Positions 3,592 to 14,033 of a DNA stretch of 64,000 nt are shown piece after piece; position 1 is the stretch's first letter; the number at the start of each line of letters is the position of its first letter. Position numbers and translations under genes: made by a program. The notes below the pieces were generated by a model. That model worked only from the letters and a program-made list of their open reading frames with translations. It searched no databases and was not told the origin of the DNA. Source of the stretch: Bacteroidota bacterium (GTDB lineage Bacteria; Bacteroidota; Bacteroidia; Palsa-965); the NCBI GenBank assembly GCA_020402865.1, contig JADBYT010000008.1, forward strand, positions 62,001 through 126,000, read 5' to 3'.

Positions 3592-5316
3592 TCAAATAAC
3601 TTTCAAAATCAGTTTACGCTCAAACTGCCGGTTGGTTTCAGAATACACTTTCACTTCCACGCTGCCCGAAGCACGCTGAATAATATTTTCAGGTATCACA
3701 ATCACCGTTTCACTTCCGGCACCAAGATCAAGCTGCTGCAAAGATTCTGTAACTACTTTCGACGTGTTGCGGTCTGTAAACTGCAGCGTGTAAGCATAAC
3801 TATCAGCCTCTGAACCTTCGTTGGTTACAGCAAAAGCAGTAATACCATTATTACCGGTCATTTGCCGCACAGTAAAAAAACACGGATAAAGCGATGAGGC
3901 ATAATGCACGCGTGTGTGCTGAAACTCCTCAAACAGTTTACTGCGCGGATTCCAGTTTTCGCAGTAGGCCTGCCACACAATGGCTTTATCGGGCGTTACC
4001 TCCAGCACACTCGCCAGCGATCCGCCGCCGATAAGAATATTTCCGTTGCGCAGCATTTCTGCATTGCCATACTTTGTGGCGTTGCGGGTATAACCTGCAT
4101 CGCGCCGCAAGTCAAATTCCCAGAGCGTAATCAGCTCGTTACTACCCGGCTTCATTTGCATGAGTTGTACCGATGAATTCCCTTTGTTACGCAGCGAATC
4201 GCCATTGTTGTTGAACAAAAGCAGCGAATCGCCGTTCAACACATTTACATCATGCTGGTTCGAAAAATTACCCGTGTAGCGGGCCAGCACTTTTCCTGTC
4301 ATCCGCTCAATCTTAAGCACAATGCCAAGCATTCTGAAACCGGCATACACAAACTGCCCCGTGGCATCTGTACTAATACTGCTCAGAAAGGCTTTCGAAT
4401 AGGGCGTACCTCCCTTTCCCGGATTCACAAGTATTTCTTGTTCTTTGAAATAGTTGCGGGATGACCACATCCAGGTTTGCTTCCCCATCCAGTTGTATTC
4501 GGTAATGTAAGGGTAGTTTAACACAACTGTATCGCCGCCGTTTACCACTGTTTTCACCGCTTCATTGCCCAGCGTAAGGTAATTGCCGGCAGCAGTGCGT
4601 ATCAGGTTGCCATGATAATAATCGGTTCCTGAATTTTTGCGGATTGCCTTATTGTTGGGCCCGGTCCACAAAATTTTTCCGTCCACATCAACTTCAAACA
4701 CACTTTGCGCCGCAATAAATGTAAACGTTCCCTGCGGCGTAATCCGCAAATCGCGCACAATATCCCCCCGCCCTATTTTCTCATCTACTGCAGGAACCAC
4801 CCATACTATTTGTCCGTTCCGGTCATAAACCGCCCGTGCAAAATCAATGGCAACAAGACCGCTATCAGAGGTCGTATTTTTTGTTACACGTAAAATATTC
4901 CGTTGCGAATCGTTCCAGTTTTCAACTGCAGTGGTAAACTCGAGATATTGTGATTTTGAAATGGATTTACCTTCCTTGTTCAATGCAATTACCATCCAGC
5001 GGTAACTTGTACCCAGCTTCAGGTTTTTAATCAACGTAGCCGTTGAATAATCATTTTGCTCTGCAACAGTTATATACAGGGGCTCCTGTTTCCCGCGTAA
5101 AACAATTTCTTCCACCACTACCCGGTATTCCACTGCATTTTCCACCGCCGGATATTCAAACATAACCTGCGTATGGTTGAGCGATGCGCCCGGCTCAGGC
5201 ATGTAGGCCGAAACGGGTGTTACGGAAGGACGTGTAAGCACCCCGGAAAGTGTTTGCCGTGGCTGCGCTGCTAGACTAAGCGCATGGAGTAATAGTATGC
5301 TGAATAAATAACGCAT
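3592..5316 (-). CDS. Arylsulfotransferase (ASST)-like exported propeller protein
   Basis: 574 residues from ATG 5316 (MRYLFSILLLHALSLAAQ is a good signal peptide; a TTG lies three codons upstream). Residues about 40-125 look like a fibronectin-type-III module ending LEFTT. The next ~330 residues match the bacterial ASST beta-propeller pattern: GQIVWVVP, DVDGKILW, YYHGNLIRTAAGNYL, YITEYNWMGKQTWMW, NQHDVNVL and GNILIGGG. Characterised ASSTs move sulfuryl groups between phenolic compounds in the periplasm using a histidine; histidines are present (HGN, QHD) but I cannot establish catalytic equivalence. A short Ig-like tail ends the protein; no T9SS sorting domain is seen. Confidence 0.7.
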   Translation of the reverse strand: MRYLFSILLLHALSLAAQPRQTLSGVLTRPSVTPVSAYMPEPGASLNHTQVMFEYPAVENAVEYRVVVEEIVLRGKQEPLYITVAEQNDYSTATLIKNLKLGTSYRWMVIALNKEGKSISKSQYLEFTTAVENWNDSQRNILRVTKNTTSDSGLVAIDFARAVYDRNGQIVWVVPAVDEKIGRGDIVRDLRITPQGTFTFIAAQSVFEVDVDGKILWTGPNNKAIRKNSGTDYYHGNLIRTAAGNYLTLGNEAVKTVVNGGDTVVLNYPYITEYNWMGKQTWMWSSRNYFKEQEILVNPGKGGTPYSKAFLSSISTDATGQFVYAGFRMLGIVLKIERMTGKVLARYTGNFSNQHDVNVLNGDSLLLFNNNGDSLRNKGNSSVQLMQMKPGSNELITLWEFDLRRDAGYTRNATKYGNAEMLRNGNILIGGGSLASVLEVTPDKAIVWQAYCENWNPRSKLFEEFQHTRVHYASSLYPCFFTVRQMTGNNGITAFAVTNEGSEADSYAYTLQFTDRNTSKVVTESLQQLDLGAGSETVIVIPENIIQRASGSVEVKVYSETNRQFERKLILKVI

Positions 5317-5402
5317 CAGAAACAAGGGCCAGGTGAATTGTAGTGTGTGAAGTTACGCAAACTTCAAAAATCCGGCCACTTCCGGTGCGGCATTGCTGCC
5401 AA

Positions 5403-5450
5403 TAAAAACAGCCCGGCAACAAATTTCGCAGCGTTGCACCGGGCTGTTTC
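5403..5450 (-). terminator. Terminator of the YCF48-like gene
   Basis: ACAGCCCGG (5408-5416) pairs with CCGGGCTGT (5439-5447), with an inner CAAC/GTTG pairing. On the minus strand the stem is followed by TTTTTA. It sits between the T9SS cargo gene (stop at 5469) and the ASST-like gene. Confidence 0.8.
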
Positions 5451-5468
5451 ACAAAAGCGGGATGTGCT

Positions 5469-6755
5469 TTATCGGGTTACCACTATTCGTGCAGTGGCTT
5501 TCAGTCCGGAATCGTCCTGTACGTGCATCATATATACGCCGGGCATTTGCGTAAAGGCCGACACGGATACAACGCCTGTAAAACGCTCGTCGCGCAGAGT
5601 GTAGAGCAGTTTACCGGCTACATCGGTCACATCAATTTTCACGGCATGGTTGCGCAGGCTGCTTATCACCACATTGTCCTGCATCTGCACCGGGTTGGGA
5701 TACACATTTATTTCTGGTGCAACTTCGTTATGCAATCCCACGCTGGCGGTTAGTGCATAACGGTAAATGGCACCACTGTCGCCTACAGCAAATGCAAGTG
5801 TGCTGTCAACCACAAACACGCCGCGTACAATCTGGTCCACAGCATCATAGCTGCCTGCAGACCAGCCGCCGGTGGCCGCACGGGTTTGCAAAAATCCGGC
5901 GCCGGTGGTCATGCTGTAACCGCCGGCCACCGCAAAACCGTTGGGCAGCGCCTCAAAATCAAGAAAGCCTGGATAGTAAAATGTCCATGCAAAATTCTGA
6001 TCCGGCGCAAAGGTTTGTCCGCCGTCGGTTGATAGCCATACGTTGGCAAAATTCGAAGCATCATTCACCGCAATAAACGAATTGTTGCCAATGTAATCCA
6101 CCGCCGTAAAATTGGCGGTATCGTTTATGCTCAGTGTATCAAACGTGCTGAAACCATCGGTTGACGAAAACATTTTTCCATAATCGCCAACAGCTACATA
6201 ACGACCTGAAGCCGGACTGTAAGCCACACCGGTTATACCTATATTTTCAAACTGCGCGGTCACACCAAAATAAAGCAGTTGCGCATTGCCCCAGCCGCTT
6301 CCATTCCAGCGCGACACAAATGCACCATTGAAGCAGCCGTTGCCAAACAAGTAACCTTCATTGGCATTCACAAAAAATATTCCGTCAGGAAAACAAAGCG
6401 ACGGTGCACCGGGAAAATCCATCCAGCTGTTGCCACCATTGGAGGTTTGCTTCACATCGCCGCCGTGATATTCGGGCACTATCATTCCCGTATTTCCCCA
6501 CATCCATATATCATTCAGATTTCCCGGGAAAAGTGAACTCACATTGTTCAGTTGCACCCAGGTATTTCCACCATCTGTAGTACGCAGCAACACACTGTCT
6601 TCTCCTACCACATAACCAGTATCAGATGAGGTGAAAAATACTTCACGCAAATTTTTAGTGGTACCCGAACTAAGCGGCTGCCAGCTGCTTTGTGCGTTTG
6701 CGGCTATTCCACCAAGCAGCACACACATCAGAATAAGAAATTGAAGAGGTCTCAT
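5469..6755 (-). CDS. YCF48/BNR-repeat secreted protein with T9SS sorting domain
   Basis: A 428-residue protein: signal peptide (MRPLQFLILMCVLLGGIAANAQ), then repeated propeller blades of the YCF48/BNR type (SSDTGYVVGEDSVLLRTTDGG, ANEGYLFGNG, STDGGQTFAPD, TLAFAVGDSGAIYR). The last ~75 residues are a Type A T9SS C-terminal domain, recognised by NVYPNPVQ, a central VAGKLLY strand and the terminal TARIVVTR. It should cross the outer membrane through the PorSS machinery and be released or anchored at the surface. Ligand unknown. It is transcribed alone, with its own -7 box and terminator. Confidence 0.9.
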   Translation of the reverse strand: MRPLQFLILMCVLLGGIAANAQSSWQPLSSGTTKNLREVFFTSSDTGYVVGEDSVLLRTTDGGNTWVQLNNVSSLFPGNLNDIWMWGNTGMIVPEYHGGDVKQTSNGGNSWMDFPGAPSLCFPDGIFFVNANEGYLFGNGCFNGAFVSRWNGSGWGNAQLLYFGVTAQFENIGITGVAYSPASGRYVAVGDYGKMFSSTDGFSTFDTLSINDTANFTAVDYIGNNSFIAVNDASNFANVWLSTDGGQTFAPDQNFAWTFYYPGFLDFEALPNGFAVAGGYSMTTGAGFLQTRAATGGWSAGSYDAVDQIVRGVFVVDSTLAFAVGDSGAIYRYALTASVGLHNEVAPEINVYPNPVQMQDNVVISSLRNHAVKIDVTDVAGKLLYTLRDERFTGVVSVSAFTQMPGVYMMHVQDDSGLKATARIVVTR

Positions 6756-11109: not shown

Positions 11110-11143
11110 TGACTGGTTCCTTAAAAATGGGTAACAATGAAAA

Positions 11144-12112
11144 TCAATCTCCGCATTTAATATGTAGAAATGGCTTATCCCCTGCTACTACATAGTTACT
11201 CAGATTTTCGGAAATTATTTCATCAATAAGTCGAAACACGGTTACATTCGCAAATCTGTAATTTCTGATAGGCGAATGCCATTCAATTTCACTTTCCGGT
11301 AAGTCAATCAGAATAGTCGCAACGTAATTTCCGTTTAAGATCACTCTTAACTTCTCAAATGACTTAAATAATGCTTGTTGAAGTACTTTAATCTGTATTC
11401 CTTCATCATACAGCTGATACATCCCGTTAACATAACTTTTCACCAGCCTCTCCTGATTATCATGAAACCCGACAGTCAGTTTTACACTTACATTACCCGA
11501 GACAGCCTCACCGCGAAAAGGAGCTTTACTCAATGAAACAGTCTTTAAAAGCCCCTCAAACAACACATCTGTGCCTCTGGGCTGATAAAGTAGCTCCGTT
11601 TTATCAGTTTCATGCGAATAATAATTAACGCTGAGCGAAGAATGAAAGGTAAGCCAGTGCAATAAATCATTCCTTAACCGGGAATCCGTCAGTTTAAGAA
11701 ACTGAAGGATGTGTTCATTAAAGTTAAATTCAATAAAAAAGCCCTCGTATTCAGACTCATTCATTACAAGTTCATCGTTATCGAATTCCAAAGAGACTTT
11801 TCCTTGCCCCTCAATGACACAATGAATCACTGGCTGTTCCGATACAAGAAGCAAAAACATACCCTCGTTATCGCGTTCATTAACGCCTGTATCATCATTA
11901 AGTTTTATATAAGGGAAATTACCTGTCCGTATAAATTCAAATTCCTGAGCACAATACAACTGTAATCTGTTCTGATGATGATTAATGTTAATCGACAAAT
12001 CAGTCTTGTTCCGAAAAAAGAAATTAAGAAGATTGTAAAACCATTCTGTTCCATTGCCAAAAAACATTGCTGGCCTCTTTGCAATAGCTTCTTTTATTCC
12101 CATAATTTCCAT
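11144..12112 (-). CDS. Degenerate GyrB/ParE-like GHKL-transducer protein lacking the ATP site
   Basis: 322 residues. Aligning by eye with E. coli GyrB from memory, the collinear landmarks are: GIKEAIAKRPAMFFG (5-19) for the LxxVRKRPGMYIG start; VIHCVIEGQGKV (95-106) for the region after the ATP lid; LLYQPRGTDVLFEGLLK (174-190) for the F-YxGGI-FV-LN block; VGFHDNQERLVKSYVNGMYQLYDEG (214-238) for the SFVNNI-EGGTH block; and NGNYVATILIDLPESE (260-275) for the transducer strand GLTAVISVKVP-P. Missing are the catalytic Glu/Asn helix residues, the DnGRGIP motif, the GxHGVG lid and the QTK loop. There is no TOPRIM domain. It appears unable to bind ATP, and may pair with or mimic gyrase/topo IV. The gene is clearly more AT-rich than its neighbours, which suggests transfer. 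Confidence 0.6.
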   Translation of the reverse strand: MEIMGIKEAIAKRPAMFFGNGTEWFYNLLNFFFRNKTDLSININHHQNRLQLYCAQEFEFIRTGNFPYIKLNDDTGVNERDNEGMFLLLVSEQPVIHCVIEGQGKVSLEFDNDELVMNESEYEGFFIEFNFNEHILQFLKLTDSRLRNDLLHWLTFHSSLSVNYYSHETDKTELLYQPRGTDVLFEGLLKTVSLSKAPFRGEAVSGNVSVKLTVGFHDNQERLVKSYVNGMYQLYDEGIQIKVLQQALFKSFEKLRVILNGNYVATILIDLPESEIEWHSPIRNYRFANVTVFRLIDEIISENLSNYVVAGDKPFLHIKCGD

Positions 12113-12223
12113 ATTTTAAATATAAGGAAAAAACCGCGGAGCGGCCAATTTTAACGGCCAAAAAAATTAAGCAAACACAATGAAAAACAACATTTTAACC
12201 CTACAACACAACCTATAAACAAC

Positions 12224-12255
12224 AAAAAAACCGCAGAAGAATCTGCGGTTTTTTA
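12224..12255 (-). terminator. metK terminator
   Basis: CCGCAGA (12231-12237), loop AGAA, TCTGCGG (12242-12248), flanked by A-runs and T-runs on both sides so that it could work in both directions. It lies 17 nt after the metK stop. Confidence 0.85.
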
Positions 12256-13592: not shown

Positions 13593-14033
13593 CTATAACC
13601 TCACCATCCACAATTCATGAGCCATGTTGGTATTACCGACTTGTGCATGAATGGAATCCGGAAGACCAGGTTGATTACTTTCTTCGTTGTACTGAAAATA
13701 ACCGTAGGGTGGAATATTCATTCTCAGAATAAACTGACTGTAATTTAAAGCAGGCGTAAGTGCCCAATAAGTCGATGTATCACCCCTGAACTTAAAAAAT
13801 TCATCGGTTAAAAAGACTAACGTATCCTGCAGGGGATAAATAACAAATGATGAATCGCCGGGAAGTGAATCCGTCGCCTGATAAAGCAGATACCTTTCAC
13901 CCGTCATATCAACCGGGAGAAACATTGGACGATCTGTGCCACCAGTTGAGTAAGGCTCAGGAGTTTCTTCCTGCTTACAGGAACAAACGAAAAGCAACAT
14001 GCCCATGTAAGCAAAAAGAGAAAATGGTTTCAT
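13593..14033 (-). CDS. Putative lipoprotein
   Basis: 146 residues with a lipoprotein signal peptide: MKPFSLFAYMGMLLFVCSC, with the likely lipidated Cys at position 19 after VCS, followed by an acidic KQEETPEP tether. The mature part is a small, probably beta-rich domain with DMTGERYLLYQATD and ALTPALNYSQFILRMNIP. No known family recognised. The gene stands alone between metK and the FKBP-like gene and is divergent from the latter. Confidence 0.65.
   Translation of the reverse strand: MKPFSLFAYMGMLLFVCSCKQEETPEPYSTGGTDRPMFLPVDMTGERYLLYQATDSLPGDSSFVIYPLQDTLVFLTDEFFKFRGDTSTYWALTPALNYSQFILRMNIPPYGYFQYNEESNQPGLPDSIHAQVGNTNMAHELWMVRL

Follow-up and report, generated by a model that had tools for sequence, protein, structure and literature searches.

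Between metK and csaA in a Bacteroidota genome lies a gene for a stand-alone protein, here called Q, that is very likely derived from the N-terminal half of GyrB and carries a dead ATP site. Q belongs to a recurrent and undescribed kind of protein already present in databases, one solved structure included. The explanation taken as a whole, that Q is a pseudo-enzyme derived from the GyrB/ParE 43-kDa fragment and serves as a non-catalytic modulator, is offered with some reserve, at a little less than an even chance. Positions in the Q genome refer to the window, the whole stretch of 64,000 nucleotides that was analyzed, and the features discussed are collected in Table 1.

Table 1. Features of the Q locus, with window positions, strand, and type of support
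Feature	Q residues	Position	Strand	Support
Q coding sequence, stand-alone pseudo-GyrB	322 aa	11144..12112	-	ORF, NCBIfam, profile, shuffles, codon pattern
Hairpin and T-run 3′ of metK (inverted repeat I1)		12225..12254	-	sequence
KRPAMFFG, equivalent of GyrB KRPxMYIG	12-19	12056..12079	-	profile match, sequence
Place of DxGRGxP and ATP-lid segments; motifs lost, shortened, AF2 pLDDT mostly <35	56-125	11738..11947	-	
GHKL C-terminal strand/helix block, GFFIEFNFNEHIL...LYQPRG	122-190	11543..11749	-	NCBIfam parE, profile
Transducer domain; most of it at AF2 pLDDT near 90	195-310	11183..11530	-	hhalign, AF2, Foldseek
QTK-loop place, WHSPIRN; lysine lost, low pLDDT	278-284	11261..11281	-	AF2, alignment

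Coding status and genomic setting

The Q frame, which opens with ATG, is a real coding frame, since 322 codons in a row without a stop would have a probability of about 1e-11 at the local base composition and the GC content of the three codon positions (0.47/0.28/0.35) follows a coding pattern. The other five frames across the gene contain 12-47 stops each. With a GC content of 36.7%, Q is AT-rich against neighbors that mostly range from 51 to 58%, as had been noticed in the sequence-only reading of this DNA; a second low-GC neighbor is the open reading frame at 13593-14033 (41.7%).

Q lies downstream of metK and 34 bases before csaA, and the hairpin with its T-run is probably the metK terminator, parting metK from Q. 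In another genome of the same family (G011), whose metK is 90% identical, the gap between metK and csaA is about 0.3 kb and holds no Q, so that Q is either an insertion in its own genome or has been lost from G011. This G011 belongs to a different genus, and metK of the Q genome (12273-13514) is only 72-76% identical to that of genomes labeled as the same genus, a pattern that possibly reflects exchange or an odd genus label. A 14-base direct repeat (13/14) around Q, at 11134-11147 and 12177-12190, with its copies 1043 bases apart, may be due to chance or may be the trace of an insertion. The same genome encodes a single intact GyrB (L023) and a single intact ParE (L024), and besides these two, Q is the only match in the genome that covers the GyrB/ParE region.

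Relationship to GyrB and ParE

The NCBIfam model parE_Gneg matches residues 122-254 of Q (profile positions 159-292) with an E-value of 2.2e-4. A GyrB profile built from 29 GyrB/ParE N-terminal halves, of the same class as the Q genome, scores 10.8 bits on Q through two segments that are collinear with it (residues 3-28 and residues 117-253). None of 5000 shuffles reached this score, the best of them attaining 7.2 bits, and reversed Q and the best unrelated natural open reading frame scored -2.1 and 4.2 bits, respectively. Residues 198-310 were aligned by hhalign with the GyrB transducer at P=4.7e-4, with a probability of only 32% from a single sequence, and in a MAFFT alignment the whole of Q is collinear with GyrB/ParE at about 15% identity. 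Taken together, these four results make homology to GyrB/ParE highly probable at the sequence level, and the NCBIfam match, the collinear profile match, and the hhalign result bear out the ATPase-transducer order of elements that had been read from the letters alone.

A contrary reading, that Q is an orphan protein unrelated to GyrB and that its GyrB motifs are only apparent, draws on the low identity, on the absence of a Pfam match, and on a phmmer search of Q against the PDB that returned only a designed TPR protein; PHROGs likewise held no match. Chance resemblance was rejected on the NCBIfam match, the profile score, and the shuffles, and since independent significant profile matches fall in the right order and two further proteins described below (L231 and L257) bridge Q to GyrB, it is highly improbable.

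Kept and lost elements

The 43-kDa fragment of GyrB/ParE and Q have in common the order of their elements and the predicted fold, whereas Q is without the ATP site and TOPRIM and has a shortened lid region and arm. Every full-length GyrB/ParE protein aligned, those of the host included, retains E42, N46, D73, and K337. In Q, E42 is replaced by F, D73 is lost (R or G by alignment), and DxGRGxP, the GxHGVG lid, and QTK are lost as well. The earlier statement that every ATP landmark is missing stands for these motifs and was slightly too strong in view of three other positions: N35 can be aligned with the Mg-binding N46, and G102 and G104 with lid glycines, the latter two in a region (residues 56-125) where the alignment is uncertain and residue letters shift between alignments. 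Because of these three positions, erasure of the ATP site appears nearly, not perfectly, complete.

Only 11 residues precede the KRP motif in Q compared with 28 in the host GyrB, making the arm about 17 residues shorter, and an in-frame TAA stop precedes the ATG by two codons. Most of the GyrB N-terminal dimer arm, with its Tyr, is thus missing from Q, which argues against the standard arm-swapped N-gate dimer; such a dimer is not expected. At the other end, the frame stops at the transducer and the next open reading frame is csaA, confirming the lack of a TOPRIM domain that had been read from the sequence. The transducer is present according to profile comparison and AF2, and its QTK switch is lost in the alignment. 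We infer from these sequence features that Q neither binds nor hydrolyzes ATP and cannot make a topoisomerase.

Structure prediction with AF2 from the Q sequence alone gave no usable model (pLDDT 30.5). An alignment that included 25 GyrB-type proteins gave a pTM of 0.67, with most of the transducer at a pLDDT of about 90 and above and the former lid (residues 56-125) below 35. Foldseek matched this second model to GyrB/ParE throughout (E about 1e-12). Because the alignment contained GyrBs, the model is consistent with a GHKL plus transducer fold rather than proof of it, and the comparison with GyrB by structure prediction that the sequence-only reading had put forward came out in agreement to that extent.

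Search for close orthologs

The sequence-only reading had spoken of a conserved protein, and this was not upheld: whole-genome searches of roughly 740 genomes and scans of collections turned up no close ortholog, with none in genome contigs, viral contigs, plasmids, phages, the family, the class sample, or the phylum sample. Two weak matches from the class sample (L002 and L003) were rejected as orthologs, as their frames contain stops. The pattern KRP[AS]M[FY]FG, run over 84,980 species, gave 42 matches and no full-length relative of Q. Among these matches, four loci (L064, L089, L092, and L094) have the entry motif KRPAMYFG and no GHKL domain, some of them with two halves, and possibly form a separate KRPxMYxG family. 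With a profile of lid-less N-termini, the matches listed from the phylum sample were confined to Q and what appears to be ordinary GyrB, for the most part in frames of 640-790 amino acids. Peptide patterns found no GyrB/ParE in viral contigs, and viral GyrB-type proteins were gathered by a DNA motif scan of these contigs; the best match of Q among them, at 8.8 bits, is a GyrB-like protein with an intact ATP site (L142:9124-10389).

The single copy of Q, its patchy occurrence, its AT-richness, the lack of an ortholog, and the identity of about 15% to GyrB would all suit a gyrB fragment that arrived by horizontal transfer and is now a decaying, non-functional relic. Neutral drift to such divergence, however, would have broken a frame of 966 bases, and the frame is intact, with a coding GC pattern and with fold-defining positions still collinear. 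Full-length frames are also retained in three members of the class and in the Myxococcus protein 3cwv described below, and a relic is therefore improbable.

Other stand-alone GyrB-like proteins lacking ATP-site residues

Two proteins from the same class as Q have a comparable architecture. A family search over genomes with extra matches, followed by reading of the locus, found L231 (genome G164, 4806-5861, minus strand), a protein of 332-352 amino acids with the entry RKRPAMFIG and QTK changed to STK, which scores 55 bits on Pfam DNA_gyraseB (cut-off 27) and has no HATPase match. The same family search also yielded G289, G041, and G136, which were rejected as GyrB relatives, being one methyltransferase-like and two aminotransferase-like open reading frames. 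A search with the N-terminal half of the L231 protein led to L257 (genome G308, 5039-6091, plus strand), a protein of 350 amino acids with the entry RPAMYLG and QTK changed to CVR, which scores 104 bits on the GyrB profile. Both proteins share with Q an RPAMFIG/RPAMYLG-type entry, a kept transducer, the loss of all ATP motifs, and the lack of TOPRIM, but they are nearer to GyrB than to Q and their gene neighborhoods differ. Short orphan open reading frames surround the L231 gene, and the L257 gene stands alone between unrelated genes. In direct scoring with Q, L231 is the best relative at 11.4 bits, whereas L257 (0.6) and 3cwv (-0.5, phmmer) are at noise level.

Foldseek also pointed to PDB entry 3cwv from Myxococcus xanthus (title 'DNA gyrase, B subunit, truncated'), for which no paper was found and which is apparently unpublished. 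Like Q, it is a stand-alone GHKL plus transducer protein of about 325-369 amino acids with a short N-terminus and no TOPRIM. Its sequence, read from alignments, has VYFLLDV at the E42/N46 helix and FCTSRTVT at DxGRGIP; E42 is changed to F as in Q, N46 is changed to V, and DxGRGxP and the lid are erased as in Q. Unlike Q, it keeps T336/K337 and a full-length GHKL region, and the two proteins have no direct sequence similarity, being connected only via GyrB.

A tblastn search with 3cwv retrieved plasmid proteins of 383-396 amino acids from Streptomyces and Kitasatospora (L219-L230), which carry the annotations 'ATP-binding protein' or 'DNA gyrase subunit B'. Like Q, these proteins stop after the transducer, have no TOPRIM, and have lost ATP-site residues: N46 (changed to Y, W, or R) and Q335 (changed to S or A) are gone from 12/12 aligned, and E42 and D73 are kept in most of the 12. 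They are far nearer to real GyrB than Q is, and they keep the dimer arm and mostly the lid glycines. At three of the loci (L219, L228, and L230), which lie on linear plasmids at a distance of a few kb from the end, the GyrB-like gene has a gene annotated 'Helicase associated domain protein' as its neighbor, and Streptomyces NBC_01006 has such a pair near both plasmid ends, which suggests a terminal gene pair. In the actinobacterium Herbidospora, a 172-aa frame (L085:6000-6600) with a GyrB N-terminus (NCBIfam E 7e-7), DDGRGIP, and a replaced lid is another, shorter pseudo-GyrB. Microbulbifer encodes a stand-alone GyrB-type GHKL protein (L090:4426-5181) with a largely intact ATP site and no complete transducer or TOPRIM.

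As judged from these alignments, Q shares the features of stand-alone pseudo-GyrBs, namely an end after the transducer, no TOPRIM, and loss of ATP-site residues, and ATP-site decay in TOPRIM-less GyrB copies is graded and occurs in at least three phyla. For Q, L231, L257, 3cwv, and the Streptomyces proteins, independent origins seem as likely as one family. A family or paper describing stand-alone pseudo-GyrBs was found neither in Pfam, NCBIfam, PHROGs, or PADLOC nor in the literature searched. To that extent the earlier remark that no such family had been described holds; the architecture itself was already to be seen in the 3cwv structure and in Streptomyces plasmids.

Possible functions

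A non-catalytic role for Q is suggested because its frame is intact at such divergence, the transducer is kept, and the ATP site is gone; such a role would also predict that the ATP residues, and just these, are lost repeatedly while the transducer fold is kept. The specific step from there to a modulator that acts on the ATPase gate of gyrase or topoisomerase IV is, taken alone, tentative. The sequence-only reading had likewise put forward a gyrase modulator, or a heterodimer with GyrB or ParE. Q would have been acquired, or kept, as an accessory gene standing alone between metK and csaA. Its product would lie against the GHKL-transducer unit of GyrB/ParE or occupy transducer cavity contacts, and would thereby alter how the gate of DNA gyrase or topoisomerase IV closes and how strands are passed. 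GyrB contacts GyrA through parts that Q lacks, and the GHKL/transducer gate is therefore the only place where Q could meet the topoisomerase. Lacking TOPRIM, Q is unable to bind GyrA/ParC in the manner of GyrB; this counts against a modulator, as do the shortened arm and the failure to find a partner, an operon, or a phylogenetic link that would tie Q to gyrase. A regulator on the gyrase N-terminal fragment has a precedent, going by the title of a Foldseek match, PDB 6zt5 (MfpA with GyrB47), and a degenerate GHKL protein that works in the absence of ATP has one in MTOPVIB (PMC11077084).

Q could also be a scaffold or a DNA-binding protein in which the GHKL-transducer fold serves a purpose outside gyrase, by analogy with plant MTOPVIB, a degenerate GHKL protein that is functional without ATP binding and retains DNA binding (PMC11077084). 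MTOPVIB and TOPOVIBL, which are eukaryotic type IIB proteins, resemble Q in keeping a degenerate GHKL fold without ATP binding (PMC11077084) and differ from it in that they belong to the Topo VI B lineage and work with SPO11, so the likeness is one of analogy only. The position of Q as a lone gene, unlinked to gyrase genes, would fit a scaffold. The acidity of the protein (pI 5.2, charge about -13.6) nevertheless disfavors general DNA binding, and the gyrase entry motif KRPxMxxG is kept, making this role unlikely.

The sequence-only reading had further raised a defense or immunity factor, and in that capacity Q might be a decoy or immunity protein guarding the ATPase domain of GyrB/ParE against attack by a toxin or a phage inhibitor. 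Immunity genes normally adjoin their toxin, and this counts against such a role: the neighbors of Q are metK and csaA, no toxin or defense gene adjoins it, PADLOC gave no match, and no toxin or defense gene was found beside L257 by reading of open reading frames. On the other side, the L231 gene sits among short orphan open reading frames, and the Cpe1 toxin cuts GyrB/ParE within the ATPase domain, at a GG motif (PMC12136450). A substrate decoy of the Cpe1 type was rejected because Q contains no GG motif anywhere, and protection of this general kind is decidedly unlikely. A modulator of the topoisomerase gate is favored ahead of a scaffold, a decoy, and a relic.

Implications

Gyrase is essential and a main antibiotic target. 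It is rather doubtful, though conceivable, that GyrB has been made over and over, in at least three bacterial phyla, into small ATP-dead regulators of the gyrase or topoisomerase IV gate, with Q as an extreme member. Annotation pipelines label some of these proteins 'DNA gyrase subunit B' or 'ATP-binding protein' despite the loss of key ATP residues, and the site altered in pseudo-GyrBs is the pocket that aminocoumarin-type drugs bind in real GyrB. If ATP-dead copies of the gyrase motor do evolve repeatedly, they would point to a hidden layer of supercoiling control, or to a means of gyrase protection.
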